This document shows positions 1 through 22,193 of a stretch of 32,178 nucleotides of DNA, piece by piece. The notes beneath the pieces were generated by a model, which worked only from the letters and a program-made list of their open reading frames with translations, was not told the origin of the DNA and did not search any database. Numbering within the stretch: the stretch's first letter is position 1; each line of letters begins with the position of its first letter. The stretch comes from a virus, in IMG/VR virus record IMGVR_UViG_3300008999_000019, positions 1 through 32,178 of that record; one strand, given 5' to 3'. The position numbers and the translations under genes were made by a program.

Positions 1-1223
1 ACCCTCTGATTGTTGCTCCAGCAACACAACCAGATGGCTATCAATTTCCTATCTGCAATGGGCTTCTGTACTATTCTAACAGACTAATTGCTACTGGTCA
101 GCATTACTTAAGTGAAGGAAGGTCTAACTATGCCGTATGCGTTGCTAACTATCTAGAACACTTGAGTTGGGATGCGGTTGATGAATTCCTGTTCAATCAA
201 GGTGGTAATGATGAAGTCATTTCTATTACGCCTTGGACGCTAAATGAGTTTCTTGTCTTTCTTAGAAACAGTATCTTTTATGTAAACATTGGTCTTGGTA
301 GATATTCTACTGGTGACGGTCTTTCTACCACATCTTTTATTAAGTCTCTTGTTACCGACACAGGCTGTCTTGCAAAGAGAACCGTAGTCCAAGCCAATGG
401 TGGCATTCTGTTCCTGTCTGACAATGGTGTGTACTTCCTACAGCCTCAGAACAATTCGTCTAACGACTCTGTAAGACTTTTGACGGTTGCCGAACCGCTG
501 TCTGCACAGATTAATGATGTCATTCAGACTATCAATAAGACTACCGCATACAAGTCTGTTGCTATTTATTTTAACAACAGATACTACCTTGCCGTGCCAA
601 TTGGTACATCTGAAACAAACAACTGTGTTCTTGTTTATAACTTTATCCTAAAAGGCTGGGAGTCTGTTGACACTTACCCTGCTGGATTTGATGTGTTTAA
701 CTTTATTGTATGCAAGCGTAACAACGAAAAGAGAGTGTTTATTGTAGATACAAATCAAGGCATCTTTTTGATGGATGAACTTAATTACGATGAGTATCAA
801 GATTGGGCTATTGGAGACCCCAACCAAGGTACACCTATTCTTCCTTTTCCCTGTGGCAATGGACTGAGTGCCTTGCTTGATGAAAGTTCTTTCCCTAAGA
901 ATAAAATTACAGGAGTTCTCCAGACAAGACGCTATAACTTTGAAAGCCTTGGACAAAAAAGGTTTAGTACAGTTGAAGTTGAAATGGTCTCTGAAGGCTC
1001 AAGTAGCGTTCTTACAGAGGCTATAGTAACAAATCCAGACTCAGTTACTACTATTGAAGGTTATGGTTACACAACTACTGAGGACTCTATGCGTAGAAAT
1101 CCTATCAGAAAAAACGGTTCTGGCATTCAATTAAAATTTACATCTGATAACGACAGACCCACAATTCGCTCTAGTTTTGTGTACGCAACTGTCTGGACTC
1201 AGAACAACATTAGCAAAAAATAA
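1..1223 (+). CDS. Tail nozzle/hub protein, T7 gp12 / P22 gp10-like (5' partial)
   Basis: This reading frame is open from the left edge (first whole codon at base 3) with no stop before 1223, so the gene begins outside the window; 406 residues are visible. An internal TTG at 162 is not the start, because the frame continues upstream with protein-like sequence. The protein is rich in beta-strand-like segments of about 40 residues with aromatic and Gly turns (FLSDNGVYFLQPQ, NNRYYLAVPIG, NCVLVYNFILKGWESVD). This resembles the beta-propeller repeats of podovirus tail tubular protein B (T7 gp12) and P22 gp10-type stabilisation proteins, which form the tail nozzle below the portal ring. Position immediately before the fibre and internal virion genes agrees with the T7 order. 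Arginine codons are mostly AGA (11 of 17). The family call rests on residue pattern and gene order. Confidence 0.6.
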   Translation, partial: PLIVAPATQPDGYQFPICNGLLYYSNRLIATGQHYLSEGRSNYAVCVANYLEHLSWDAVDEFLFNQGGNDEVISITPWTLNEFLVFLRNSIFYVNIGLGRYSTGDGLSTTSFIKSLVTDTGCLAKRTVVQANGGILFLSDNGVYFLQPQNNSSNDSVRLLTVAEPLSAQINDVIQTINKTTAYKSVAIYFNNRYYLAVPIGTSETNNCVLVYNFILKGWESVDTYPAGFDVFNFIVCKRNNEKRVFIVDTNQGIFLMDELNYDEYQDWAIGDPNQGTPILPFPCGNGLSALLDESSFPKNKITGVLQTRRYNFESLGQKRFSTVEVEMVSEGSSSVLTEAIVTNPDSVTTIEGYGYTTTEDSMRRNPIRKNGSGIQLKFTSDNDRPTIRSSFVYATVWTQNNISKK

Positions 1224-1226
1224 CTT

Positions 1227-2399
1227 ATGGCACAAATTAAACGAGGAGACACATTTGTTGACGGTCAACAGGTAACTGGTGACAGACTCAACAACCACAT
1301 TAACAATGCTAGTCTTGATGACGATGCAATCATTGGACAGACCGCCCTTACTGTAAACACGGTAGCGGTAGGTGACTCGTTCTTGATTCACGATTTGTCT
1401 GCTACTTCGCCACCCACTAAACTTAGAAAGATTACGGCTACTGGATTTCTCAACAGTCCTCTTAACTGTTCTTTTAATCTTTTTGCACAACCACTTAAAG
1501 ACATTACGCTAACTCCTATTATTGGAACTGGTGTACAGAACAAAACCATTTCTCCTACTACAGTTGGTGAAGTAACCACAGTAAAGATTGTGTCTGCTGG
1601 TCACGGTCTTCTTGCTGGACAGGTTATTGTTGTGACTGCTGGTCCTTCTGATTTTAATGGAACTTGGGAAGTTGATAGCGTTACTCCAGACGAAATTAAC
1701 TACAAACTTTTTGTGAAGTCAGTTCAGACCGCTGGAACTTGTTCGTATGTTAAGGCTCCTAGTGTACTTTCTACTGGGCATATTTCTGTTACAGGCGGTC
1801 TTTATTCAGACGGAACTAATAAGTTTGATGGCGTTACCCAATGTATGGGCAATCTTGTTGCTGAGTCTGCCCTTACTGCTAAAGGTGTGTGTAACTTTAC
1901 AGGTACTGTTCAGTTTAAAGGCACTCCTGTCTTTGGTCTGTATTCTAAAATAACTTCACCTCTTACTAATGTTACCTTGTTTGGCACGGACAATGTTTAT
2001 CGATTTGCGGCTTGGTCTGCTAATTGGATGAATTTTGGTAAAGTTACTTATACTGAAGATTTTATTGTTCCAGATGAAGAGACTTGGGAGATACACCTTG
2101 TTTCTACATTGTATAACAATATTGTGGTTGGTGCTGGCAATTATGGTTATGGTTGCCAATTAATTTCTAGTGTAAACAATGTTACTACAACTACTACAAT
2201 TGGAGATACATTTAGCATTGGAGTCAATAGATACACCGCCACTCCATACATCTATAATGTTATTCTTCCTTCTGGTACTCACACTATTAGAATGGTTGCC
2301 TGTCACTTTGGTGGAGTAAGTACTGCTGGCTCTGAACTTAACTGTAGTACCACGGTTGCCCCTTCTCACAAAACTGTAAGCAAGTTCAAGACTGCTTAA
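1227..2399 (+). CDS. Tail fibre / appendage structural protein
   Basis: A 390-residue protein. Its N-terminus (MAQIKRGDTFVDGQQVTGDR followed by LNNHINNASLDDDAI) matches a segment common at the start of fibre-like structural proteins of marine podoviruses, which I take to be the virion-attachment region. The middle is Thr/Gly/Val-rich and low in charge, as in beta-structured fibre shafts. The C-terminal part (about 245-390) looks like a compact beta-rich tip with conserved aromatics and could be the receptor-binding or trimerisation head. The start follows the previous stop by only 3 bases (AAATAACTTATGG) with no Shine-Dalgarno. Its stop overlaps the next start as TAATG. Host-range function is inferred from position and composition only. 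Confidence 0.6.
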   Translation: MAQIKRGDTFVDGQQVTGDRLNNHINNASLDDDAIIGQTALTVNTVAVGDSFLIHDLSATSPPTKLRKITATGFLNSPLNCSFNLFAQPLKDITLTPIIGTGVQNKTISPTTVGEVTTVKIVSAGHGLLAGQVIVVTAGPSDFNGTWEVDSVTPDEINYKLFVKSVQTAGTCSYVKAPSVLSTGHISVTGGLYSDGTNKFDGVTQCMGNLVAESALTAKGVCNFTGTVQFKGTPVFGLYSKITSPLTNVTLFGTDNVYRFAAWSANWMNFGKVTYTEDFIVPDEETWEIHLVSTLYNNIVVGAGNYGYGCQLISSVNNVTTTTTIGDTFSIGVNRYTATPYIYNVILPSGTHTIRMVACHFGGVSTAGSELNCSTTVAPSHKTVSKFKTA

Positions 2400-2830
2400 T
2401 GACAGAAGAAGACTTCCAGAGCACTTGTAGATTTGTCTACGAGAACAAAGACAACGGCAAACGCCCTGTCTTTCAGTTAGACTATCTTGATGACTGGCTG
2501 AAGTGGGCGATGGAAAAGGAATGGATGTTTATCAATAAGGTAAACAATGAGGTCAACGGAGTTGTAATTATCTACCCAATTGGTAGGTGGGCAGAAACTC
2601 CAACCCTTGAAGATGTGTTCAGATGTTCTGGAAACACATATGTTGACAACGACTACTTCATTATGGACGCTTTGGTTGACAATGAAGATGCTAGGGCTAA
2701 CATTTGCCGTCAAATCGACAATAGATTCCCAGAGATTAGAGGGGATGAGAACAGCCAAATCTTTTCACAACGAGGAGATATTGTGCAAAAACTCAAAAAA
2801 GACCTAATCATAAATTTAACAAATAACTAA
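2399..2830 (+). CDS. Small virion-region protein in the T7 gp13 position, possibly GNAT-like
   Basis: A 143-residue protein whose ATG shares one base with the previous stop (TAATG), suggesting translational coupling. It has a short alpha-beta pattern: a helical N-terminus, a Trp-rich segment (DDWLKWAMEKEWMFI), a strand pair (NEVNGVVIIYPIGRW), a central YFIMDALVDNEDARA stretch and a final basic helix. This is weakly reminiscent of GNAT acetyltransferase-like folds, and T7 gp13, which occupies the same slot between tail tube and internal core proteins, has a similar size. T7 gp13 is an internal virion or assembly protein. No acetyl-CoA-binding loop (RxxGxG/A) is visible, so enzymatic activity is not supported. 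Structural or assembly helper is the best guess. Confidence 0.45.
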   Translation: MTEEDFQSTCRFVYENKDNGKRPVFQLDYLDDWLKWAMEKEWMFINKVNNEVNGVVIIYPIGRWAETPTLEDVFRCSGNTYVDNDYFIMDALVDNEDARANICRQIDNRFPEIRGDENSQIFSQRGDIVQKLKKDLIINLTNN

Positions 2831-2831
2831 T

Positions 2832-3659
2832 ATGGGTTCAACAAAAGTACAGGCTCCACCGCCTAGAGATTATTACAAGGAATCGGTTGATACGATTCGT
2901 GCTCAAGTAGATATGGCTCCCATCATTATGGATGCGGAGCGTAGAATTGTTCCGCAGATGCAAGCAATGCAGATGGAGCAGATGCTTGGTCAGTCCAAGA
3001 ATCTTCTATCTTTCTATGGGCAGGTGATGGACCCGTTTTCTAAGTTGGCTGGGCAGTATGCTGAGTCGATGAACAAGAACACGATGGAGCCTCTTGCTAG
3101 AAGTAGCAGAACTGCATACGAGGCAAGTCTTGGTGGCGGGGCTGGCATTCAAGACAAACTCCGCTCACAGGCGTTTTCAGACCTTGATGCTGGATTCAGC
3201 CTTACTCCAGAGATGAACACATTGGCTACACAGATGGCTAGGGCTGGGGCTACTCAGCGTGGTATGGCTGGTGGCAACTATGGCTTGGCTTCCGAAATTC
3301 TTGGCGGTTACCAGATGGGACAACAGAGACAAGATAGAGCCAGAACCTTTGCTGGTGCTGTGCTTGGTTCTGACCAGCAGTTGGCTGGACAGGCTTACGC
3401 TCAGTATGGCTCTCCGATGATGGCTGGCATTATGCAGGGCTTTAGTCCTACAGGCATTGCTGGTAATGCTATGGGTATGAACACCAACCTTGGTCCATCC
3501 TATGTTAAGCCAGAATCTCAGATGGCTCAGAATATTTACGCTAGTAACTACAACGCTGAACTACAGGCTAGAACTGCTACTGCATCTAATAATGCGGCGA
3601 TGATTAGCGGTGCTATGAGCGGTGCTGGTTCTGCTCTAAAATCTGGCTGGGCTAAGTAA
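2832..3659 (+). CDS. Internal virion / DNA-ejection protein (T7 gp14 slot)
   Basis: A 275-residue protein rich in Ala, Gly, Met and Gln. The N-terminus has a Pro-rich motif followed by DYYKESVDTIRAQVDMAP, a pattern seen in small structural or DNA-transfer proteins of many T7-like marine phages. The rest is helical and small-residue-rich (for example AGGNYGLASEILGGYQMGQQ and an AGIMQGFSPTGIAGNAMGM stretch). Such composition is typical of ejection proteins that insert in or line a trans-envelope channel, such as T7 gp14 or P22 gp7. The gene lies between the gp13-slot protein and the two larger internal core proteins. There is no Shine-Dalgarno; the upstream bases are AAATAACTAAT. Function comes from composition and synteny, not from a catalytic motif. 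Confidence 0.6.
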   Translation: MGSTKVQAPPPRDYYKESVDTIRAQVDMAPIIMDAERRIVPQMQAMQMEQMLGQSKNLLSFYGQVMDPFSKLAGQYAESMNKNTMEPLARSSRTAYEASLGGGAGIQDKLRSQAFSDLDAGFSLTPEMNTLATQMARAGATQRGMAGGNYGLASEILGGYQMGQQRQDRARTFAGAVLGSDQQLAGQAYAQYGSPMMAGIMQGFSPTGIAGNAMGMNTNLGPSYVKPESQMAQNIYASNYNAELQARTATASNNAAMISGAMSGAGSALKSGWAK

Positions 3660-3664
3660 AACAT

Positions 3665-5707
3665 ATGGCATCACCATTTACACAATATACATCTGAGCAG
3701 GTAGGTCAGATTAACATTCTTCCTGCTGTTGGTCAAATCAGCGAGATGCTAAGAAAGGGCATCGCTGACTTTGGACAGGGCGTGGGAGAGGCTTATACTG
3801 GGTACAAGCGAGAACAGGCAGAGCACGATATTATGGCACAAAATGCCGTAACATCTGCTATGAAATATCTCAAGCAGGAGGAAAAGCCTAATGATGATAA
3901 TGGTGACAGCGGTCAACTTAACTACGAACTAGACCCTAATACCCCTATGCATACGGCACTCCTTATGAAGGAGGCGTTTAAGGTTGGCGGTGGAGATTGG
4001 ACTAATCCAGAGACTGCTATCAAGGGTCTTGCTGGGATGGACACTAATAAACTTAGAGCGTGGATGGGTGATGAGAATAAGTACAAGGTTGAGAAACAGC
4101 AGGAGTTTGACAACGATATCAAGGGAAGAGAAATGAAGGCTAGAGAGAAAACTCTCCTACTTGCTGAACAAGACGCACAAAGAAAAGACGCAGAATACCA
4201 GCGTGGTGTTGAAACACAGAAGGCTCTAATTGCCATTGAAAAAGAAAAGGTCGCTACTACTGCCATTGGTGAAAACAAGATTGTAACCAAGCACAGAATT
4301 GGTGACTTGTATTCTAAAACAGGAGAACTTCTTGCTTGGCAGACTGACATTGAATCTGTGATGGCTCAGAATGGTCTTAAGGATTCTGATGTAGTTACAA
4401 GGGAAACCCACGATGCACAGATTAAGGTTTACGATGACTATCCTTCTCACGCTTCTGCACAGCATTTTGCTGGAACTACAGATGGCAAAGTTCCGTTTAA
4501 CCCAGAACTTCCATTAAGAGATAATCAAGAACTTCACCGCAACAATGGTGCTACTGAAAAGTTTATTAGAAACGCATTTAAGGTTGGTACTGAACTTGAA
4601 TCTCCAGCCCTAAGAGCACAAGCAAAGGTATTCTTTCCAGAAGGATTTAGTGGTCCAATTTCAAATATGAATGGTGCGTATGCAATGGCTAAAAACATTG
4701 TAAAGACTAAGCCAGTACAAGAAAGACTTGCTAAGAACTATGGCGTTGGGATGGTTCCCAATGGTGCTATCTTTGACAAGGCTTGGGTTGATGTGACAGG
4801 CACTACTGACAGCATTTCTGTCACTAAGATTGAAGTTCCTATTCACCCAGATGCCCAAGAGAAGGCTAGATATGACGCTGTGTCGGCAAGAATGGGAGAC
4901 AAGATGCCATTCTCTTATGAGCAATTTAAGATTCTGAGTGTTGGTCATCGCATTCCGTGGTCATACGATGGTCAAGGCAACAAGGTTGTTCAAGTTGGCA
5001 AGGGTGCTAACGAAAGATGGCTTCCATATAATGACCTTGCAAAAATTACTGCTGAACCACCTAAGAATCAGTTTGAGCAGAACAGACTTGGCACTAGCAC
5101 TTGGCTACAGGGACACGCTGGCAAGGGACTTCATTATGGTCCACAAGGAAATGGGTTTACGCTTGTTTACAATGGTACTATTGACCAACTTAGGTCTCCT
5201 AACCCAATTGAAGATTCTCAGTTTGTCAGCGATGGTCTAGGTGCTGTCGTAGATATCAGAAGAATTGGTGCAGAGATGAAGAGTCTGATTAATGGTGCTG
5301 GCATTGTTGAGAAGAATCTTAGCGTTTCATACAATCAGAAATACGAGAATCTGTCCCTACAGGCTCAGACTTACAGAAAGTACTTCATCGCAAGCGGACA
5401 GGAAACCGACAAGGACAATGCACGACTTACCACAATGGTAACCGACAACTCATTCCTTAAGACATTTACTCCTACTGAACAGATTGAAATCATCAACGCT
5501 ATGGAGCGTATCATTGGAAACAAGATTCTTGGTAAGTGGACTGCTATGGGTGGCAAGGTTCTTGAAGATAGACCTAATGCAGTAAGCGAGGAAACGATGA
5601 AAAAGATGATGAAATACGCAGATAAGGCTGGTATTCCTACATTCGAAGAACTAAAAGCCAGAGACCTTGCTGAAAGGGCTTCCGCAAGAACCCATAAACC
5701 CCAATAA
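3665..5707 (+). CDS. Internal virion protein (T7 gp15 slot)
   Basis: A 680-residue soluble protein. The N-terminal 70 residues are amphipathic (LPAVGQISEMLRKGIADFGQ). A charged, probably coiled-coil helix spans roughly residues 135-205 (many E, K, R and Q), followed by a long mixed-fold body and a basic, Ala-rich C-terminus. Length and place, directly before the giant protein and after the gp14-slot protein, match T7 gp15, an internal core protein that leaves the head with gp16 during infection. I see no enzymatic motif. The ATG follows the previous stop by 5 bases (TAAAACATATGG). Its stop shares one A with the giant gene's ATG (TAATGG), so the two are probably translated together in fixed proportion. 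Confidence 0.6.
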   Translation: MASPFTQYTSEQVGQINILPAVGQISEMLRKGIADFGQGVGEAYTGYKREQAEHDIMAQNAVTSAMKYLKQEEKPNDDNGDSGQLNYELDPNTPMHTALLMKEAFKVGGGDWTNPETAIKGLAGMDTNKLRAWMGDENKYKVEKQQEFDNDIKGREMKAREKTLLLAEQDAQRKDAEYQRGVETQKALIAIEKEKVATTAIGENKIVTKHRIGDLYSKTGELLAWQTDIESVMAQNGLKDSDVVTRETHDAQIKVYDDYPSHASAQHFAGTTDGKVPFNPELPLRDNQELHRNNGATEKFIRNAFKVGTELESPALRAQAKVFFPEGFSGPISNMNGAYAMAKNIVKTKPVQERLAKNYGVGMVPNGAIFDKAWVDVTGTTDSISVTKIEVPIHPDAQEKARYDAVSARMGDKMPFSYEQFKILSVGHRIPWSYDGQGNKVVQVGKGANERWLPYNDLAKITAEPPKNQFEQNRLGTSTWLQGHAGKGLHYGPQGNGFTLVYNGTIDQLRSPNPIEDSQFVSDGLGAVVDIRRIGAEMKSLINGAGIVEKNLSVSYNQKYENLSLQAQTYRKYFIASGQETDKDNARLTTMVTDNSFLKTFTPTEQIEIINAMERIIGNKILGKWTAMGGKVLEDRPNAVSEETMKKMMKYADKAGIPTFEELKARDLAERASARTHKPQ

Positions 5708-8700
5708 TGGAATCGCAGAACTTTACTTATTCCTCCGAAGAAGACCTTCGTAGGATTGCTTCTCAACAGGGATACATCCTGCCTTCACAGGTAGCAGTTG
5801 CTGACCCAAAGACAGACCTTGAGGAGGAGACAAGGGCAAGTGAGGCTCCGTCTGAAGAACTGGACGGAGAGTCTATTGCTGGAATGATTGCCAGATTTAC
5901 TACAGAAGGTCATAGACCTACTTTTCAACAGGCTCTTATTTACCGTGAGCATATGAAGACTAAAGAAGTCGATATGTGGAATGGTATTACAAGTGCAATG
6001 TCTGCTACCGCAAGCGACCTTGGCTCTGGTGCTTATGAACTAATTGGAGATGCCTTGCACCTTAAAGTCCCAAAGGTTGTAGGTTCTGTTATTGAAGGTG
6101 CTATTATGGGTACTGCTAATTGGTATCATATGTACGAGGAAGGTAAGTTTAATGAAGACAGTTTGCTTCACAAGATGCTGTTTAAGAAGAACAATAGTGA
6201 TGAAGAGTACTATTCTAACTTGATGAATATGCTAGACCTCAGACAGAGCATTGAGGAGCACACTAGAAACGGATACTTCCTTCCAAAAGAAATGGAGGTC
6301 GGGGGTCACAAAATTGAACTTTGGAATCCTGCTGTTGTTATGGCTATCAGTTATGTTGCAGACCCTTCTTGGGTAGCACCTAATTTCGGAATCGAATCTG
6401 CCCTTGCTAAGGGTATGAATAGTGCAAACAGAATGCTCAAACTTAATGAGCAGTTGGCTAGTGCTGGCATCTGGGCATCTAAGAGTATTGAGGGTAATGC
6501 TAAAAAGGTTGGTGAGAGTGCTGGAAGACTATCTGCTGGCATTCTTAAGGTTGAAGAATCACTTCTTAAAGACCTTAAAGATACATTTGAAATTGATGCC
6601 TTCATTGGTACTTCTGGTCAAGTTGTTGACAAGTCTGACCTTGGTAGAGGTGCTATGACTGCTGTTGGTATGAATGCGGTCAAGATTCCTGCTTGGTCTG
6701 TTACTACCCTTACTTGGGGTGTTGCTAAGTTGGGAGAAGGTCTTGCTGGTGCTGTTGAAACAGGTGCTAGAATTGCCAGAGAAGCCCCTAAGAATGCTGG
6801 TATGAGGCTCTCTGAGCGTATTGCTATGGAGTCTGAGAGTAAGGTTGTTTCGGCTATGGCTAACACTTGGGCTAAGACTGGCTCTCCATTCCTTGAATGG
6901 GGTACTGCTACGGCTCATACCACGCTACACGCTGGTATGTATGGTGGTGCGTTTGGCTTTACCTTTGGCGGTGAAGAAGGCTTCTACAATGGCATTGGTT
7001 CTGGCTTTGTGCTTGGTGGTGCTTTCCACCAGATTGGTGCTTTTCATAATACTGTTGCTGGTGGCAATTCCCCTAACGAAGTAATTAAGAACTTCCTGTG
7101 GTCTACTCAGCACTATGATTTGGCTAATCAGCAGGGTCTTCATCGCCTCCTTACAAATGTTGAGAGAGATTATGATGACGGTAAGGGCGGTGGACAGAAG
7201 GCTAAACTGCAAGTTATGTCTGACATTGCTTCTGCTGAAAGACTCCAGCGTAATGTAAGAAGACTGATTCTTACTGAGGAGGAAATCCAAGCCAGAATGA
7301 CTGACGATGAGTGGGTTGATTACGAAAAGTTTAAACTTGCACAGGCTGATACTTGGGGTGGTGTTGCCTTTAGACAGAAACTTAGCGGAGAGATGGTAAC
7401 TATCATCAACGCTGACAGGGCTGTTAAGTCTGCCGTTAAGGAAGAACTCTTCCACACACTTATGATGTCTGAAAGATATCGTGAAGTGTTCCACCAAGAT
7501 GCAATGCAAGCCCTCATTGGTACGGATGACCATAAGGGTGCTCTGTATCGTATGCCAAAAGAACAGGCACTTAGCCTTCTTAAACAATTTAAGGAAGCCT
7601 ATGTTGGGCTTGAACAGGAAACCGCAAAGAAGGCTCCTGTTAACGATGGTCATTTCCAAGAACTTGATAAGCATTGGGATGAGGTCATTAACGACTTCAG
7701 AGAAGGCAAAGACCTTGGTGGCAAGATGCACAGTCTCTTTGAGGAGTTCCTTGCATCGTACTGGAATCGCTACATTGAAGATAAGCCAATCGACTATCTC
7801 CTTAAGGGTGGTGACCTAGGTCTTATCCGTAACGCTGTTCAACTGGCTAAGGATTCTTACCAGAACATTATGCACACAGATTTGACCTCTGCTGGTGCTC
7901 ACTTTAATTTCGGAACTAACATTGACCATTTCTTCCTCGACCAGAAAACTGGTCAGAGAGTCCGCATTCCTAAACTAGAAAAGTTGATGGAGCATTTTGT
8001 TAAGACTGCTTCTAAGGAAATGTATACTGGCTGGACTGTTAATCCTCGCAAGGGTGGGGGCATTGAAGGGGCTGTTGCAAATGAGTTAGAACACCTGTTT
8101 AGCAGAGATGCTACTGGTGGGCTTAAGCGTACATCTGAATCTGACCTTGATAAGGAAACTGCTGTTTCAATGCAGAATGTTCTGCGTAGCATCCTTGAAC
8201 TAGACAAGAGCCAGAGAGGACTTAAAATTACTGTTAATGGAAACAACGGTGGAGATGGTCCAATGGCGTTCTCTAGAGGCAAGCCAAAGAAGCCTAAGAC
8301 CAAAAAACAGGTGGAAGAAGAGGTTACTGGAACCAAGCCAGTACAGAACAAACTTCCCAATAGAAGAGCAATTGCAGACCATTGGGATGATGTAGAGCCA
8401 GCCACCCCTAGAAAGAAAAGGGGTACAATTGATGAAAACGAAATTGCCATCGCTGAAGAAGTTGCTGGCGAAGACACTTCTGGTTCTGGCAGATGGTCTA
8501 CTGACAAGCGTAAGAAGTTTTGGGAAAGCGTTTGGGAAGGCAATCCACGAATCACTATTACTGGTAGAGCGTCTACTGCTGAACTTAAGATTCTTTCCGA
8601 CCACCTTCCTGCTAATACTGTAAAGAGATTTGCTGAACTTAACACCATCATCGAGATGGCTAGAGACGGTGTGTTTGCTAAGAATGTGTCTAACATTGCC

Positions 8701-11700
8701 AAGACTGAGTATATGGCAAAACAGAAGGAAAATAATGATGGTAGCCGTATCACATACGAAGCGGGTGAAGAAAGAGTACGCCACACTAACTTTATTCCTG
8801 TTGAACTACATCTGTACTTTGAACGAAATAAACGAATCGTTGATGGTGAACCAGAACTGAGTGTTGGTACTGCTCAGATTAAGGTTACAGCCATTGACCA
8901 CGATGCTCTCATTAAGCGTGTTGACTATGCTTGGGCTAAGTGGGTTGAGACTGGTATGTCTTGGAGAACTGTCAGAAAACTTTTTGGAGATAAGACCAAC
9001 CTATACCAAGCCTGTAAGGACTTGATTACTCATTACTCAAACTCTGAGTCTAAAGAAGGTGGCATCAGAATCTTCCAAGCCAATGGTGCGGTAGGTGCTA
9101 GAGATGCTGGTCATATGAGAACGATTGCTAATGCTGTTCTTGGATTCCATCCTACCAATGAGATGGTTCGCAGAGGCGAGCATTCTAATCCTAGGTGGAA
9201 ACTACAGAACAGAATGGAAGGAAAGAAGGTAGATGTTCCCGATGTCATCTTTGATATGAACATCAGAAGAATGGGAAGAATCACCACTAGAAACGGTGAA
9301 GGATTTGGCGTGGATTGGAATTCTGCCTATGTCAGAAGCCAGTACAACCATAGCCCTGCAAAGGTTAAGAGAGACCACGAAGGCAACCCGCTCAGAACGC
9401 ACGAACTTTCTGCACTCCAGAATAGCGTATACCGAAATAAGGATGGCGAAATCCTTGCCGTATACTCTCTTAACAAGCCATATTCTTCACAGAAAAGAAT
9501 GAATGAATCGTCTGTGTTTGATTATGTAGATGAAGGTCTTGGTAATAGATTTGGCTCTAGAGGCGGTGAATACTTCTCTGATACTGGCTGGTTGCACTAC
9601 ACTCCAGATATGGGTCTTGCCTCATTGGTAAGCAAGGGGTCTATGAAGACTGGGTACATTGATACTCAGAAACACATTGACCTAAGCGACTTGCATCCTA
9701 CTTCCACGGTTGAAGATGTTGCTGGCGTTCTAGTCAATCGAATGTCTGAACTGACTGGCAAAAGCAGAGAGTCATTGTTGGCTGAACTGCTTTCAATTGA
9801 GACTGGAGAAGGCGTAACGGTTGGTGAACTGTTTAACACTCACGAGAATGTGCTTATGCACGAAGGTCACGACCTTGATGTGTGGCTGTTTACTCCAGAA
9901 ACTGTAAAGTTTATGAATGAAAACGGAATCAACTCCGTTGAGTATCAGTATCACAATAGAATTGCAGACACTAATAGTACTGCTGTTGCTTTGCTTGATA
10001 ACAGAAGGTTCATTGAAAATGTGTCCAGAAGAGCAGAGGCTAATTACTTTGCTTTCAGTCCTGCTAAGAAACCGAGGACTCCCTCACACAACCCTCCCAA
10101 GACAATTACCGAAGTCCTTCAAGATAAGATTAGGGCGTTGCAACAGGGTAACTATACTGAGGCTGATATCCAGAAAGCATTCCTTTCTCATATTGTATCT
10201 GAAGATGGAAAGACCGTCTTACAGAACCCAGAACGCCTTACAGAAGACGGTCTTGATAGCCTTATCCAAGAACAACTTGCTAAGGTTAGACAACTGACAA
10301 GAAAGGAACAGGCTGAAAAGTTTGGTCCAGAAGACAGAGCAAAGATTGCAAGCCAACTTAGAAGCCATACTCTTAGGGCTTTAAGAGAAAAGTTCCCTGT
10401 TGCTCCTACTGCTGTTCTTAATCAGATTGCTGATGTTGCCCTAAGCGGAGTCAGCGTAAATGCACAAACTGTAACTACTGGCAGGGTTGCTGGTAGGGAT
10501 ATCCAAAAAGAAGTCCTTGCGATTAACGGAACTGTGCTTGGAAGAATTAAAAAGAATGGAGGTCTTACTGGAAGAAAGATTGAGGACAGCGGTATCCCAA
10601 TGCTTGCACACATTGCTGAAATGAGTGAGAGAGACTTCCAGATTTTTAAGGCTATCCCAGAGTACCTTGATGCAATCAAGAAGGGAACTACTGCTGAATG
10701 GCTTCAGACAAATCAAAGCATTGTTGATGACCTTTATGGCAAGCACGGTGGTCCAAAGAAGTTCTACAAAAAGTTTGATGATGCACAGAAGGATATCTTC
10801 TTCCTGCTTGATGCACAGTTGGCTAACAAGATTCCATTAACTGATGGCAGTCTTATGGATGTTGTTAACGAAAAGAAAATCAGAGAGGCTTTTGCTGAGA
10901 AGACTAGGGCGTTTGTATTTAAGACCCTTACGGAGGCTGGCTGGGGTCAGCGTGGTAGCCTTATGGAGACTTGGGACAAGTATAGAGATGTTAAGAAAGA
11001 AGCAGAGATGAGCCGTGCTCTGTTCAGAATGCACTCAGAAAATATTGAGGGGATGCTTACATCCGAGTTCCACGAGCGTGTGCTTGATACCCTTACCGCT
11101 CTTGATATCCCTCTGGACAATAAGATTGTCAACCACAGGGAGATTGCAGAAATGGTTAGAGCCGTCCTGTATGACCAGTCTAGAAAAGGTTTAATCAAAC
11201 TTGGTTCTTATGAGGCTATTGCTGAGAGCGTGAGACTGTATTATGAATACGCAGAAAGAGAATCTGTTGACGGAAAGAAAATTGTCATAGACAAGAAGAA
11301 GGCTCTCAGAGAAAACCTAGTCAAAGCACTAATTGAACTTGAGGAAAATGGCTTTGAAGGCATCAACTGGACAAAGCGTCCAGACACTCGTGATGTAACA
11401 AAAGAAGGTAAAGTGTTTAAGGTTACACAGAAACTGTTTGCTGGTTCTGGTGACACGCTGATGACCATTGATGGTCACAACATCTGGGACTTTGAAGGCA
11501 CTCATTTTAAGGTCATTGAAGAAGGCGTTTGGGCTGATGACTCTGCTCTTATCCTTCGTGATATGCGTACTGGTGAGGCTATCCTTACCAAGCCAATGAA
11601 GAAAGAAGGCTCTAGTACTGCTTCTAATACAGAAAGAGGAAAGATTATCAGAGAGTTTCTATCTGAAGCCACACACGCTATCGTAAAGAGACAGCCAGCA

Positions 11701-14700
11701 ACCGCTCTGTCTATGAACTTTGGTCAAGTACACGGACCAGTTAAGGACTACATCATTACAAAATGGCTTGCCGAGGACAAACAGGCTGATGTTGGTATGC
11801 TTGGTGGACAAGACTTCTCTAACTTTGCTTTGTATAAACAAGGCAATCATTATGTTGCTGTAAGAAAATACGAAAACTATCTGATTGATGAGGCTCTTCC
11901 TAAGAGAGAAGGCGAACCCGAAAGAAAAAAGGGACGAGGAGATATTGATACTCAGCAAAGAATTGACCAACTTGAGCGTGACTTTGCCAATGGAGTTGTT
12001 GAAAGAACTGTTCCATCTGGAAAGAACAAGACTTCTACTGTTAAGCGTAAGGGTTCTGCCGATGAACTTGCAACGCTCAGAGAGCAGATTACAGACCTAA
12101 AGGGTAAACTATTTACTGACAGAGGTGTCATCCTTGAGATGGGGCAGGATGGAAGTGTTAGTGTTATTGATACTCCTCACACTATGCTTGAGGTGGCTAC
12201 GGCTATTAAGAACCTTAAGAAAGGTAACCTTAACACAAAATCTTTTGAGGCTTATGTGAAAGAGATGTACCGCACATTCCATTACAAACTTAAGGCTTTC
12301 CAAGAAAAAGAAACAGGTAGAATTGAAAAGGTTCTTGACCCAAAAGAAGGCAACCTTGTTAAGATTAAAAAGTTACAGGCTGAAATTAATAAGCACCAGA
12401 GCAAGGTGCAGGAACTGTATATGGAGCGTTACAGAAAACTTCGGAAAGAGAAGTACGCAGATGGCAAAGAAGCATACCCAGAAGAAATGTGGTCTGCTGA
12501 AGATATGGTATCGGAAGTTGAAAAACAGATTGATGCAGACATCAAAAATGCAGACCAAAATGTACGCAATGCACAGAATAGAATCTATGCACTAGAACAA
12601 AAACTCCTAGACTTAGGTGCATTCCCAGAGTTCTCAAAGATGTCTATGTCTGAACAGCAGACTTGGCTGGCACAGCAGGACAGATACTCAAAAGAAAATG
12701 GAGTAGGCGGTAAGTATGACACAGCCAACTGGCTTGATACTAAGATGCCTATGTTACAGGGAGAACCTACAATGGATTACATTGTAAGAATCAGAAAAGA
12801 AAGACAGGCTCAGTCTCAACTTCTCATCCAGCATCAAGGTGCTTATGACGGAATGAAGAACCTGCTTGATTACAATAAGGTAAACCTTGAAAAGGTTAAA
12901 CTTAAGGTTCAGTTCCTTGCTCAACAGTACGCAGAGGCTAGTGGCATTAAGGTTACCCAGACTTGGCTTAAGGGATTGGTTGCAGGAGGAGAGGGCGAGA
13001 TGTGGACTCAAGTAATCAATATGGGTAAGATTAAAAATCTTACTGGTCATAAGCCTATGACTCCTAGATACCTTCCAGATACTGAAGGCATTGTTGGAAA
13101 GAAATCTTCTGCTGTTACTGTAAAGGATATGCATACAGCCTTCCTTGAAGGTATGATGACTGCTTCGGATAATTGGAGGGGCATTACTGGTAGCAGAATG
13201 GAACGGATTAACCTGCTCCTTGATAGGGCTGAGAAACAGGCTGACAAAGGACCAAAGGAACCTCGTCCTGTTAGACCAGAAGGTATGAGCAATGAAGAGT
13301 GGACGCTTACACAGGAATATTATCTAGCCAAGAAACACGCTCGTGAATTTGGTGCTACCCACACGCTTCCATTGTTTAAGGAATGGGTTAAGATTAATGA
13401 AGAGAAGTTTCCTAAACTTGCTAAGAGTGTTATTTATGACAAAAAGGGTGTACCAACCTATCAAACTAGAAGCCAACTTCGTATCCACCAGAGACCGCAG
13501 GATGTTAATCTCAACATTGAATCAATGCTTAGAGATGCTTCTGTTGAAAAAGGTCTTTTGTTTGAAGACATTATGGAGGCTGGTAGACAGAAGTCTAGAC
13601 CTAGCACAGAGTTTGACCTTGGAGATGACCTTAACACCGTCCTTAAAGGAAGTAGTCTTAACCACGCAGAAGGTGCTTGGGTTCAAGACCCTCTTAATAG
13701 AAAAAAGATAGAGGAACTACAGGAGAGATGGAAGGAAGACAGACAGGATGACAGACTTAAGGCTGACAACAAGTTTGTTGAAGCCGTTAAGGAAGAACAT
13801 TTCAGAAGTGTTGTTGGAAAAGATGGAAGAGAAATCCTAGACTCGATGGATAAGATTGAGTCACTTCAATCACAGGCTTACAAACTTTACAGAATCGTTG
13901 ATGAGTTAGAATTCCAACAGCATCAGTTGTCTATTACTGGAGATAAGGATGGAGAGATTCCTAACCTTAAGGCTAAACAAACTGCATACGAAGATAGAAT
14001 TTATAAACTCAATTCAGAAATCAGACCGCTTGAGGCTCGCATTCAAGAGTCTATTGACATTACTGCTGTAAAGGAAAAGCAGGATGCGGTTACAAGGATG
14101 AGTGAACCTCTGCGTAAAATCGAACAGAACCTTGACAGTCTTCGTGCAGAGTTTGATGCCAGAAATCTTTTAATTCAAAAACTCAATCCTCCAGCAGTTC
14201 CTGTTCCAGATGGTGGTCCCGCTGGAAGCAGAGCACAGATTGAAAGAGCAACAGCCCTTGCACAGAATGCGAAGAGACCTACTCGTGCTCAATACGAAGA
14301 GATTAAAACTGCCAAACAAGAGATGGCTCAGATTCAAAAGGAAATCCACGCTGAAGAGGCTAAGGCTATTCCTCTTAGACAGGCTATCAAAGACACAGGA
14401 GTTACAGCAGGTGAATGGAAGTATCCAAAGGGAAGGGTAGAGACAGACATCTCTCCTGTTCAAATTGCTAAGTTCAATAACCCTGCATACCAAATGGTTA
14501 TTGATATGGTCAACAAGAAGAGGCATAACATTGATACATATCTTCTGCAAAGAGAGAGAACCCTTAATGAAAGAAAGCAGTTGGCTGAGTCTCACGCTAC
14601 AGACTACGCAAAGCATCTTGCTACCTTTGACGCTAGAGCCAAGCAACTTGGATACAGTTCTTCCAGTCTTATTGTAAGCCCTAACAACCCTAGAACGCAT

Positions 14701-16860
14701 CAAATCTATCTGGCATTCCCGAAGATTTCCTACGACTTGTATGGCTCTATGCACCCGCTTGATTGGAGCGGTAGCGAGTGGCAGATTGGAACTACTGCTA
14801 GAGGCGAGAAGACAATTAGTTTTGGTAGTTCAAACGACCCAGCCTATGTCCTGTACAACAAGGAAGTACAGGGAGGAAGAAAGATTTACACGCTGGCTGA
14901 CTATATGTTCTTTGCACAAAAGAAGGCTGAGTACCATATGGCTAACCCAGATATGGCTATCTCTGCTGAAGATGCTATGCTTATCAGAACGCTTGTTCCT
15001 CCAGATGTGTATACCATTCCTCAGTCCAAGGCTGACACAATCCTTGATAAGCATTGGAAAGAAATTAAGAGAATCAAATCTGGCATTATTGATAACCTTG
15101 ATGTCCCTGCTAACGCAAAGGCACTTGTTACTAGGTTTGTTGAGGACGGTCTAGACCTAGTAATCGGTCGCAGACAGGACAGAATCAATGCCTTTAAGAG
15201 ACTTGAAGGTCTTAGTGATGCTGAGTTTATTGAACGCACAAAGGATATGACTCCAGAGCAGGTAGACCAGATGACCTTTAAGAAAGAGTATATTGAACAG
15301 GCTTACTACTGGCTACAGGAAGCAAAAGATGTTGGTGGATTCATTCACCTAACATCAACAACGGAAGCCTACCAGAAACAAGACCCAAGAAATAAGAACT
15401 CTACAATACCGTTTCTTACTGAGAAACTTTCTATTCAGAGTATCATTGAGATGGATGGATTCCTTGCTCAGTTACAGGAGTCTATGGATAGAAGAAAGAT
15501 TTCTAGTATGTTTGATACTAAGCCGTACTCTAAGACGCTGTACGAGGCTCTTCCTGTTCAAGAAAGAGTTAACCTTGACGCTACAGTTGTGCAAAGACTT
15601 GCCCTAGAAAACGATGCTGGTGTCCTTAGACATCAAGGTCTCCTTGAGGCTGAACGCAGAGGTAACCCGCAATGGTTCCCCGACCAGCAGAAGGACATCC
15701 AGTACACAGGCAATGATGCTGACAGTATTCGACTTGAGCACGAGCGTGTTGAGTCACTTCTTAAGAAGATTGGTGCTGTTGAGGCTTCAGTTGCTATGTA
15801 TAAGGGTGAGGTAACTAATTTTATTGCAAAAAGACCTTGGGCTTTAGACCATTTGCTCTCCCTTAAGGATGATGGCGTTCATTTCTCTAATCTTGTGTGG
15901 AAAGATGGAGATGTAATAACTCGTGCTGACTCTATGCGTACTTCCAATGACGGAAGATATATCATTAAGAGAGAGCCTTACGGAAAGGATTTCAGATATC
16001 AACTCTACTACATTGGTGAGACATTCCTTGGTGCTGATGGCGTAAAGATTTATGAGATTCCAACATCTCAAATTGGTACATTCAGCGACACCACACAGGC
16101 ACAGGTAATGGCTAGGTTTATTGAAGACGATATTGTCAGACTTCGTACACTACAGAGCCTTGTTAAGGGTGGTAATGACAACTATTCCCCGACAAAGGTA
16201 TTTAACACATTGATTCCTTACAGTTCTACAAAGGCTGGGCATATCCTTGGGTCGCTTGCTGAAGTACCAGCGTTTTCTGGTGCTGTTATTAGAGCCTATG
16301 AAGCACACGGTGGTAAGCCAGAACACTCCAGCACTATGAAGAAAATCCTTTCACCATTGCAGGACTTTGGTGAAGTTCAGTTCTTTGCCGTCAACGGAAA
16401 CGGTCAAGTTGTTCAAAAGAGAAGAATCATTACTCCTAGTGTTGAAGTAACTCTTAAAAAGTACTTTAACCTATCATACACAGCAGATGGTCACAAGACT
16501 TGGACATCTAAGGATAGAACTCAGACCAGCCCTGCCCCTGCCAACACAGAGCACACGGCTCCGACTGCCAGCAACCCTGCACTAGAAACACCAACAGTTC
16601 ACGAGCAGAAACTTGCAGACATTACTTCCTTTGAAGCCATCTCTAATGTGCAGGTTGAAGGTCAGAACTTCCAGCAATGGGAAGTCATCCGTAACAAACT
16701 GAACTACCAGATTATTCGAACAAAGGTTAACGGAACCCAACAGTTCAAGTTGTTCAATCAGTCCTCATTGTTCATTGGTCAATTCCACCACGAGCAAGAG
16801 GCTGTGGATGAAATTTTCGCAAAAGAGTTTGCCGAGAAAGGACTAAAGTATGTCCGATAA
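5707..16860 (+). CDS. Giant 3717-residue polyvalent virion/ejection protein (T7 gp16 slot)
   Basis: One uninterrupted frame of 3717 residues fills more than a third of the window. It is in the slot of T7 gp16, the internal core protein ejected into the host, but far longer than gp16 (about 1300). Visible layout: acidic N-terminus (1-60); Gly-rich hydrophobic segments near 330-350 and 400-460 that could insert in membrane; a zincin-like segment with K578-E-E-L-F-H583 and later E679/E680; a Lys/Pro-rich linker near 860-890; an ART-PolyVal-like region near 1233-1445 (DGEILAVYSL, GEYFSDTGWLHYTP); predicted coiled coils near 2196-2304 and 2711-2898; two related small modules near 3410-3480 and 3660-3717. 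The first His of HExxH is Lys and the ART-region His is Ser, so both enzymes look degenerate. Likely role: packaged, ejected and perhaps host-acting. I see no T7-type RNA polymerase motifs, which argues against an N4-like virion polymerase. Confidence 0.65.
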   Translation: MESQNFTYSSEEDLRRIASQQGYILPSQVAVADPKTDLEEETRASEAPSEELDGESIAGMIARFTTEGHRPTFQQALIYREHMKTKEVDMWNGITSAMSATASDLGSGAYELIGDALHLKVPKVVGSVIEGAIMGTANWYHMYEEGKFNEDSLLHKMLFKKNNSDEEYYSNLMNMLDLRQSIEEHTRNGYFLPKEMEVGGHKIELWNPAVVMAISYVADPSWVAPNFGIESALAKGMNSANRMLKLNEQLASAGIWASKSIEGNAKKVGESAGRLSAGILKVEESLLKDLKDTFEIDAFIGTSGQVVDKSDLGRGAMTAVGMNAVKIPAWSVTTLTWGVAKLGEGLAGAVETGARIAREAPKNAGMRLSERIAMESESKVVSAMANTWAKTGSPFLEWGTATAHTTLHAGMYGGAFGFTFGGEEGFYNGIGSGFVLGGAFHQIGAFHNTVAGGNSPNEVIKNFLWSTQHYDLANQQGLHRLLTNVERDYDDGKGGGQKAKLQVMSDIASAERLQRNVRRLILTEEEIQARMTDDEWVDYEKFKLAQADTWGGVAFRQKLSGEMVTIINADRAVKSAVKEELFHTLMMSERYREVFHQDAMQALIGTDDHKGALYRMPKEQALSLLKQFKEAYVGLEQETAKKAPVNDGHFQELDKHWDEVINDFREGKDLGGKMHSLFEEFLASYWNRYIEDKPIDYLLKGGDLGLIRNAVQLAKDSYQNIMHTDLTSAGAHFNFGTNIDHFFLDQKTGQRVRIPKLEKLMEHFVKTASKEMYTGWTVNPRKGGGIEGAVANELEHLFSRDATGGLKRTSESDLDKETAVSMQNVLRSILELDKSQRGLKITVNGNNGGDGPMAFSRGKPKKPKTKKQVEEEVTGTKPVQNKLPNRRAIADHWDDVEPATPRKKRGTIDENEIAIAEEVAGEDTSGSGRWSTDKRKKFWESVWEGNPRITITGRASTAELKILSDHLPANTVKRFAELNTIIEMARDGVFAKNVSNIAKTEYMAKQKENNDGSRITYEAGEERVRHTNFIPVELHLYFERNKRIVDGEPELSVGTAQIKVTAIDHDALIKRVDYAWAKWVETGMSWRTVRKLFGDKTNLYQACKDLITHYSNSESKEGGIRIFQANGAVGARDAGHMRTIANAVLGFHPTNEMVRRGEHSNPRWKLQNRMEGKKVDVPDVIFDMNIRRMGRITTRNGEGFGVDWNSAYVRSQYNHSPAKVKRDHEGNPLRTHELSALQNSVYRNKDGEILAVYSLNKPYSSQKRMNESSVFDYVDEGLGNRFGSRGGEYFSDTGWLHYTPDMGLASLVSKGSMKTGYIDTQKHIDLSDLHPTSTVEDVAGVLVNRMSELTGKSRESLLAELLSIETGEGVTVGELFNTHENVLMHEGHDLDVWLFTPETVKFMNENGINSVEYQYHNRIADTNSTAVALLDNRRFIENVSRRAEANYFAFSPAKKPRTPSHNPPKTITEVLQDKIRALQQGNYTEADIQKAFLSHIVSEDGKTVLQNPERLTEDGLDSLIQEQLAKVRQLTRKEQAEKFGPEDRAKIASQLRSHTLRALREKFPVAPTAVLNQIADVALSGVSVNAQTVTTGRVAGRDIQKEVLAINGTVLGRIKKNGGLTGRKIEDSGIPMLAHIAEMSERDFQIFKAIPEYLDAIKKGTTAEWLQTNQSIVDDLYGKHGGPKKFYKKFDDAQKDIFFLLDAQLANKIPLTDGSLMDVVNEKKIREAFAEKTRAFVFKTLTEAGWGQRGSLMETWDKYRDVKKEAEMSRALFRMHSENIEGMLTSEFHERVLDTLTALDIPLDNKIVNHREIAEMVRAVLYDQSRKGLIKLGSYEAIAESVRLYYEYAERESVDGKKIVIDKKKALRENLVKALIELEENGFEGINWTKRPDTRDVTKEGKVFKVTQKLFAGSGDTLMTIDGHNIWDFEGTHFKVIEEGVWADDSALILRDMRTGEAILTKPMKKEGSSTASNTERGKIIREFLSEATHAIVKRQPATALSMNFGQVHGPVKDYIITKWLAEDKQADVGMLGGQDFSNFALYKQGNHYVAVRKYENYLIDEALPKREGEPERKKGRGDIDTQQRIDQLERDFANGVVERTVPSGKNKTSTVKRKGSADELATLREQITDLKGKLFTDRGVILEMGQDGSVSVIDTPHTMLEVATAIKNLKKGNLNTKSFEAYVKEMYRTFHYKLKAFQEKETGRIEKVLDPKEGNLVKIKKLQAEINKHQSKVQELYMERYRKLRKEKYADGKEAYPEEMWSAEDMVSEVEKQIDADIKNADQNVRNAQNRIYALEQKLLDLGAFPEFSKMSMSEQQTWLAQQDRYSKENGVGGKYDTANWLDTKMPMLQGEPTMDYIVRIRKERQAQSQLLIQHQGAYDGMKNLLDYNKVNLEKVKLKVQFLAQQYAEASGIKVTQTWLKGLVAGGEGEMWTQVINMGKIKNLTGHKPMTPRYLPDTEGIVGKKSSAVTVKDMHTAFLEGMMTASDNWRGITGSRMERINLLLDRAEKQADKGPKEPRPVRPEGMSNEEWTLTQEYYLAKKHAREFGATHTLPLFKEWVKINEEKFPKLAKSVIYDKKGVPTYQTRSQLRIHQRPQDVNLNIESMLRDASVEKGLLFEDIMEAGRQKSRPSTEFDLGDDLNTVLKGSSLNHAEGAWVQDPLNRKKIEELQERWKEDRQDDRLKADNKFVEAVKEEHFRSVVGKDGREILDSMDKIESLQSQAYKLYRIVDELEFQQHQLSITGDKDGEIPNLKAKQTAYEDRIYKLNSEIRPLEARIQESIDITAVKEKQDAVTRMSEPLRKIEQNLDSLRAEFDARNLLIQKLNPPAVPVPDGGPAGSRAQIERATALAQNAKRPTRAQYEEIKTAKQEMAQIQKEIHAEEAKAIPLRQAIKDTGVTAGEWKYPKGRVETDISPVQIAKFNNPAYQMVIDMVNKKRHNIDTYLLQRERTLNERKQLAESHATDYAKHLATFDARAKQLGYSSSSLIVSPNNPRTHQIYLAFPKISYDLYGSMHPLDWSGSEWQIGTTARGEKTISFGSSNDPAYVLYNKEVQGGRKIYTLADYMFFAQKKAEYHMANPDMAISAEDAMLIRTLVPPDVYTIPQSKADTILDKHWKEIKRIKSGIIDNLDVPANAKALVTRFVEDGLDLVIGRRQDRINAFKRLEGLSDAEFIERTKDMTPEQVDQMTFKKEYIEQAYYWLQEAKDVGGFIHLTSTTEAYQKQDPRNKNSTIPFLTEKLSIQSIIEMDGFLAQLQESMDRRKISSMFDTKPYSKTLYEALPVQERVNLDATVVQRLALENDAGVLRHQGLLEAERRGNPQWFPDQQKDIQYTGNDADSIRLEHERVESLLKKIGAVEASVAMYKGEVTNFIAKRPWALDHLLSLKDDGVHFSNLVWKDGDVITRADSMRTSNDGRYIIKREPYGKDFRYQLYYIGETFLGADGVKIYEIPTSQIGTFSDTTQAQVMARFIEDDIVRLRTLQSLVKGGNDNYSPTKVFNTLIPYSSTKAGHILGSLAEVPAFSGAVIRAYEAHGGKPEHSSTMKKILSPLQDFGEVQFFAVNGNGQVVQKRRIITPSVEVTLKKYFNLSYTADGHKTWTSKDRTQTSPAPANTEHTAPTASNPALETPTVHEQKLADITSFEAISNVQVEGQNFQQWEVIRNKLNYQIIRTKVNGTQQFKLFNQSSLFIGQFHHEQEAVDEIFAKEFAEKGLKYVR

Positions 16861-22105: not shown

Positions 22106-22114
22106 TTGGTAAAA

Positions 22115-22186
22115 TGTCCCTGCTAGGAATCGAACCTAGATAATTCGCTTAGAAGGCGAATGTTCTATCCATTGAACTACAGGGAC
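22115..22186 (-). tRNA. tRNA-Arg(UCU)
   Basis: A full cloverleaf can be folded on the minus strand, 72 bases without CCA. The acceptor stem is GTCCCTG with CAGGGAC plus discriminator A. The D arm is GTTC/GAAC around an AATGGATA loop, and the anticodon stem is TTCGC/GCGAA around loop CTTCTAA, giving anticodon TCT. The T arm is CTAGG/CCTAG around TTCGATT. CCA is not encoded (TTT follows). It lies between the lysozyme gene and the ERF gene, 7 bases past the ERF stop, so it is probably cut from the operon transcript. It decodes AGA, the main arginine codon of the structural genes sampled here. Confidence 0.95.
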
Positions 22187-22193
22187 AGATTGG

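Follow-up and report, generated by a model that had tools for sequence, protein, structure and literature searches.

The window, i.e. the whole 32,178-base virus record analyzed here, contains an open reading frame of 3717 uninterrupted codons located downstream of a tail hub gene (Table 1). This giant gene represents about a quarter of the phage genome and 34.7% of the window, bearing out the original prediction that one gene fills more than a third of it. Its start overlaps by one base the stop codon of the upstream 680-aa gene (TAATG) and its end overlaps the start of the next gene. Full-length homologs with 57-100% identity are found in IMG/VR contigs, and the gene is intact in relatives ranging from 59 to 95% identity. 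Comparison with two relatives at 95% identity gave dN/dS values of 0.10 and 0.11 for the whole gene, 0.03-0.05 for residues 500-1500, and peaks of about 0.2 in 500-residue blocks, those from residue 2500 on. The low dN/dS values indicate translation of this frame, with constraint over its entire extent. The giant gene is therefore real and under purifying selection throughout.

In PHROGs, the tail hub protein weakly matched tail as well as head-closure proteins. A 390-aa protein is encoded between the tail hub and a 143-aa gene. Genes for proteins of 143, 275 and 680 residues then precede the giant, to be compared with T7 gp13 (138), gp14 (196), gp15 (747) and gp16 (1318). The gene order gp14-gp15-gp16 downstream of the tail hub is present in the window. 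Hence, the proposal that the giant occupies the slot of T7 gp16 is supported by synteny, in order and in sizes, but not by homology. Similarity to T7 gp16 was searched with blastp, hmmsearch and hhalign; the results were negative for 8 of 8 segments, in a comparison of low power with a single T7 sequence.

Two neighboring genes vary among related records. The size of the gp15-slot protein ranges widely, from about 635 to 1400 residues. Just downstream of the giant, a 692-aa gene (17155-19233, plus strand) has partly or wholly different counterparts of 462-826 residues in relatives. Its replacement is seen even where the giant is 95% identical (L003 and L004 compared with L002). It may be a further virion or effector gene that is subject to exchange.

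Table 1 Features of the window (positions in nucleotides; aa, residues of the giant protein).
Feature	Position	Strand	Basis
Tail hub / head-closure protein (3' part), T7 gp12 / tail tubular B slot; search anchor	3..1223	+	
143-aa protein, T7 gp13 slot	2399..2830	+	Size and position only
275-aa protein, T7 gp14 slot, PPPRDYYK motif; search anchor	2832..3659	+	
680-aa protein, T7 gp15 slot	3665..5707	+	
Giant ORF, 3717 aa, third ejection-protein slot (T7 gp16 position)	5707..16860	+	ORF, homologs, dN/dS
Conserved N-terminal module, aa 1-480, including Gly-rich stretch	5707..7146	+	Shared with wider family
Zincin-like metallopeptidase-derived domain, aa 530-780	7294..8046	+	Alignments; DUF5700 match in a relative
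Lys/Pro-rich linker, predicted disordered, aa 845-946	8239..8544	+	Low-pLDDT segment
Last shared core domain, aa 930-1235	8494..9411	+	Profile E 5e-5 and weaker
Clade-specific domain, aa 1240-1450	9424..10056	+	ADP-ribosyltransferase-like pattern by eye, unconfirmed
Clade-specific middle, aa 1460-3500, heptad-like at about 2263-2306 and 2707-2991	10084..16206	+	Without known domain
Terminal module, aa 3640-3717, with a counterpart in the last ~50 aa of distant giants	16624..16857	+	hhalign

A 46,341-base record is nearly identical to the window (99.5-99.9%). It carries a terminal redundancy of 781 bp (97% identity), which puts the genome length at about 45.6 kb; the window covers about 70% of it. 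Among the head genes on the longer record are those for a terminase and for a major capsid protein of the SU10 type. Genes for ERF, RusA, a DnaC/IstB-like ATPase and a PD-(D/E)XK nuclease are found among those for replication. Search for a T7-type RNA polymerase in three related records gave no match, which is weak evidence for its absence because a positive control also remained unmatched. From its gene content, the phage is not obviously T7-like. Judged by the terminase, Phage C75C1 (31% identity, E 8e-69) and some uncultured podoviruses come closest among named records, and the nearest named-record match of the tail hub protein is likewise Phage C75C1. Among 50,697 named phage records, tblastn identified no relatives of either the giant gene or the gp14-slot protein. 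A host search with the gp14-slot and hub proteins against 84,980 prokaryote genomes gave no match for either. The phage group is podovirus-like and we could find no description of it. A tRNA-Arg (tct) is located at 22114-22187 on the minus strand, within a minus-strand gene block.

Composition and models of the giant protein

The original prediction listed several features of the chain. A Gly-rich stretch is present (residues 397-456, 27% Gly), but none of the hydrophobic segments reaches ordinary transmembrane hydropathy. The Lys/Pro linker persists in a weaker form, RGKPKKPKTKK at about residues 858-868, in a stretch disordered according to AlphaFold. The long coiled coils also have to be toned down. 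Heptad-like segments are observed around residues 2263-2306, 2707-2744 and 2860-2991, and heptad-like windows exceed those of locally shuffled sequence (57 versus a mean of 12.9). Finally, the repeated end modules were not upheld: residues 3407-3486 and 3640-3717 are both predicted, with low confidence, to contain strands plus a helix, and show no profile match with each other (hhalign probability 1.7%).

Searches in Pfam, PHROGs and the PDB revealed no enzyme or effector domain in the window's own giant, and no peptidoglycan-hydrolase domain was recognized in it. Matches to FliD_C, DUF1664 and gp20 core-protein were weak and coiled-coil-like, and were set aside. An ADP-ribosyltransferase (ART) was considered at residues 1240-1450 from a by-eye pattern (GWLHYTPD ... 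TGYIDTQ ... NSVEY ... ALLDNRRFIEN) and the predicted strand order only. This claim was dropped because Pfam, the PDB and hhalign against the ART regions of L100 and L102 gave no ART-PolyVal match. One member matched LPD22, with an E of only 0.2. The ART-like and C-terminal regions of the clade, used as queries for other contexts, retrieved the same family only.

Two pieces of the chain, residues 520-1458 and 2960-3717, were modeled with AlphaFold from 12-sequence alignments. The mean pLDDT is 58 for both models, corresponding to low to moderate confidence. Search for structural similarities using Foldseek revealed no PDB match for either one. The model of residues 520-1458 matched six BFVD entries at E <1e-3. 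Four of the six, all from uncultured phages, are annotated NAT_SF, Large polyvalent protein associated or ART-PolyVal-like (E 1e-14 to 2e-4). These are probably members of the wider giant family; such proteins would therefore already be present in sequence databases.

Relatives of the giant

Relatives were found by synteny, using the tail hub (43 loci) and the gp14-slot protein (37 loci) as anchors. In nearly all contigs of sufficient length, the gp15-slot gene is succeeded by a giant ORF, which was found in about 30 related records. Complete or nearly complete giants, after missing stretches were fetched, have 2258 to 4621 residues, and one incomplete record exceeds 4783 residues. Distant members also include shorter slot ORFs of 1757, 1642 and 1311 residues. 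All nine nearer relatives (L099, L101, L106, L108-L113) align with the window giant nearly end to end, with segments at about 23-39% identity; the part most often left unaligned is rich in heptads, at about residues 2500-2950. The chain is collinear within this near clade, without cargo exchange. For distant giants, blastp and profile matches are confined to parts of residues ~20-450 and ~480-850, apart from weak ones that extend to about residue 1235. The profile of residues 1-480 matches distant giants with E down to 3e-30. The domain at 930-1235, which has a dN/dS of about 0.03, is weakly detected in distant giants, directly following the zincin domain. These comparisons show that the first ~1,230 residues form a core common to distant giants. 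As a separate observation, the 88,287-base record IMGVR_UViG_3300010970_000150 contains two complete hub-gp14-gp15-giant modules of different clades (L062, L063, L106, L107), with giants of 3511 and 2586 residues. The record could consist of two genomes joined together, result from chimeric assembly or reflect a genuine duplication.

An HExxH motif with a downstream Glu, as in zincins, is common in polyvalent proteins but not universal. Most distant members of the giant family have such a motif (HELFH, HEVFH, HEMLH or similar), and in many of them EEFGAYYF is found about 100 residues further. L120 matches DUF5700, a putative zinc peptidase family, with an E of 8e-4 that is under the curated cut-off. 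At the HExxH position, the window has EELFH (residues 579-583, nt 7441-7455), and EEF is found at residues 679-681. The first position of the motif is E in the window and in 10 of 11 aligned near relatives (EELFH, EELLH, EETFH), and A in the other one (AEFFH). Across the window and these 11 relatives, the inner E and the last H never vary, and neither does EEF. Thus, the first zinc ligand is absent from all 12 near members aligned. In the zincin mechanism, zinc is bound by two His and a Glu (PMC5512222). Because EELFH removes a zinc ligand, no peptidase activity would be expected in the window clade, where the domain is probably structural or inactive.

At the other end of the chain, comparison of the last ~50 residues of near and distant members gave an hhalign probability of 96.5% (E 1e-9). 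This C-terminal module, present in many of the distant members, is also carried by slot proteins of 1,137 and 1,642 residues. Among the C-terminal sequences listed, it was not seen in the 4,000+ aa clade (L118-L120). A second, internal copy is observed around residues 1126-1405 of L097 (E 6e-11) and, more weakly, of L098, L100, L103 and L107. This copy is found right where the conserved core ends; the cargo of those distant giants is thus flanked by the module on both sides.

Between the ends, relatives carry recognizable domains. ART-PolyVal is over the cut-off in L100 (Pfam/PHROGs, E 5e-16) and is also found in G014 and G026. G009 has three GNAT copies, G007 and G015 have two each, and several records have one; the match is over the cut-off in G009 only and weaker in seven further records. 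G010 has a ParB-like C-terminal domain (E 9e-41). Several enzymatic domains can occur on one chain, as ART and GNAT-like in L100, ART and helicase in L114, and helicase and ART within a single 3,864-aa frame in G026. DUF7178 was detected in the 4,000+ aa clade, under its cut-off. L097 and L103 are 90% identical over residues 1-2074 and then contain different material, with about 660 residues of L097 having no close counterpart in L103. Their last 66 residues are again 95% identical. As read from the alignment, this is an in-frame exchange of putative cargo between constant ends. The domain at residues 2570-2719 of L103 recurs in L116 and L120 (residues 3620-4030) with 38-40% identity. The suggestion that the giant may carry effectors into the host gains from these ART-PolyVal, GNAT, ParB-like and helicase domains in the same slot of relatives, and from the polyvalent and ART-PolyVal-like annotations matched by the model of residues 520-1458. 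No effector was identified in the window's own chain.

Possible role of the giant

We favor the view, with a probability of about 0.68, that this podovirus-like phage encodes in the giant an internal virion (ejection) protein that has grown into a polyvalent one. This view draws on the gene order and sizes, which follow gp12 to gp16, on the giant ORFs in the same slot of about 30 records, and on relatives that keep the ends while their middles differ and are, in other phages, recognizable enzymes. The giant would be loaded into the head along with the gp14- and gp15-slot proteins and would exit via the tail upon infection. By analogy with T7 gp16, the N-terminal core may aid envelope passage, and the middle would act in the host cell prior to phage gene expression. 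In the window clade, the 2,400-residue middle would be cargo without a recognized domain, next to an altered zinc motif. The need for a protein of about 410 kDa to pass a short tail counts against this scenario, but N4 manages 3,500 residues. Also against it are the window chain, in which neither an effector nor a peptidoglycan-hydrolase domain was recognized, the low to moderate confidence of both models with their negative PDB searches, and the loss of the first zinc ligand. N4 gp50 is a precedent for such a delivery, and its C-terminal region is needed for encapsidation (PMC5512222). By analogy, the C-terminal module of the giants could have a loading role.

A purely structural protein was also considered, an oversized gp16 analog serving as envelope channel and DNA-translocation hub, with the middle as scaffold or spacer. 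The slot, the low dN/dS everywhere and the heptad-like stretches fit this description, as do the collinear near clade and the window's own chain without a recognized enzyme. However, relatives have recognizable enzymes in the equivalent position, exchanged between kept ends, and swapping of ART, GNAT and ParB-like domains is unexpected of a scaffold. We thus consider a purely structural role unlikely. Less credible still is a surface or tail protein that is not ejected (fibre, baseplate, wall-degrading tip) and that would follow the internal protein genes by chance. In its favor, the giant is long, modular and without assigned identity, and the downstream gene at 17155-19233 is also variable among relatives. 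Against this, the giant overlaps the gp15-slot gene by one base in the classic gp14-gp15-gp16 order, the cargo of relatives is of intracellular type (ART, GNAT, ParB-like, helicase), and no fibre, depolymerase or peptidoglycan-binding match was found.

The possibility that we regard as the most improbable is a virion-associated RNA polymerase or another single giant enzyme, analogous to N4 gp50. The similar size (3,500 aa), the location among virion genes and the 644-aa virion protein that adjoins gp50 in N4 speak for it. A match to an N4-type virion RNA polymerase would run counter to the original prediction and was looked for. Similarity to N4 gp50 was absent from all segments by blastp, HMM searches and hhalign, and no RNA polymerase family match was obtained.

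If the giant is an ejection protein expanded into a polyvalent protein, an entire phage group would have given the ejection-protein slot to a polyvalent protein with constant ends and exchanged middles, one near-identical pair having different cargo. The parts dedicated to packaging, entry and action in the host would be directly testable by deletions and domain exchange. The family would also offer a large set of uncharacterized domains, likely acting on bacterial hosts or their defenses. It is conceivable, though doubtful, that the constant ends (the ~1,230-residue core and the ~50-residue module) form a portable injection chassis marking any insert for loading and delivery. Large injected enzyme blocks would then be swapped in frame, as polymorphic toxins swap tips.

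Comparison with known systems

Homologs of T7 gp16, a protein that crosses the inner membrane, differ in domain content; the gp16-like proteins reviewed have 609-1337 residues (PMC8954989). The giant resembles T7 gp16 and P22 gp16 in genome position and, for T7, in the number and size of the preceding genes. It differs in being about three times longer than T7 gp16 and in having no match to a lytic transglycosylase. This N-terminal domain, which is not universal in the gp16 family, was searched for in the giant with Pfam. In N4 gp50, a region for injection at the N-terminus is followed by an enzymatic middle and then by a C-terminal encapsidation region that includes a zincin domain (PMC5512222). 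Its ~3,500 residues and its setting among virion genes are reminiscent of the giant. In contrast, the zincin domain of the giants is N-terminal of the cargo and no polymerase match was obtained. Phage C75C1 (OQ984151) also encodes large proteins in this part of its genome (2,769, 375 and 1,343 aa). However, its giant proteins have no significant similarity to the window giant.

Injection of polyvalent proteins is a prediction, mostly from domain content and gene context. They are described as injected multidomain proteins that carry zincin and ART domains and whose genes adjoin those of the virion (PMC5512222). The giant shares with them a very long chain, virion-gene neighbors and a zincin-like domain; its relatives further share ART-PolyVal, GNAT, ParB-like and helicase domains in varying order. 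It differs by its position in the third ejection-protein slot and by its constant core of ~1,230 residues. The window clade further departs from them by the lack of a recognized effector and by EELFH in place of HExxH. Taken together, the sequence comparisons suggest that the giant, in a phage group for which no description was found, is a variant of the phage polyvalent proteins.
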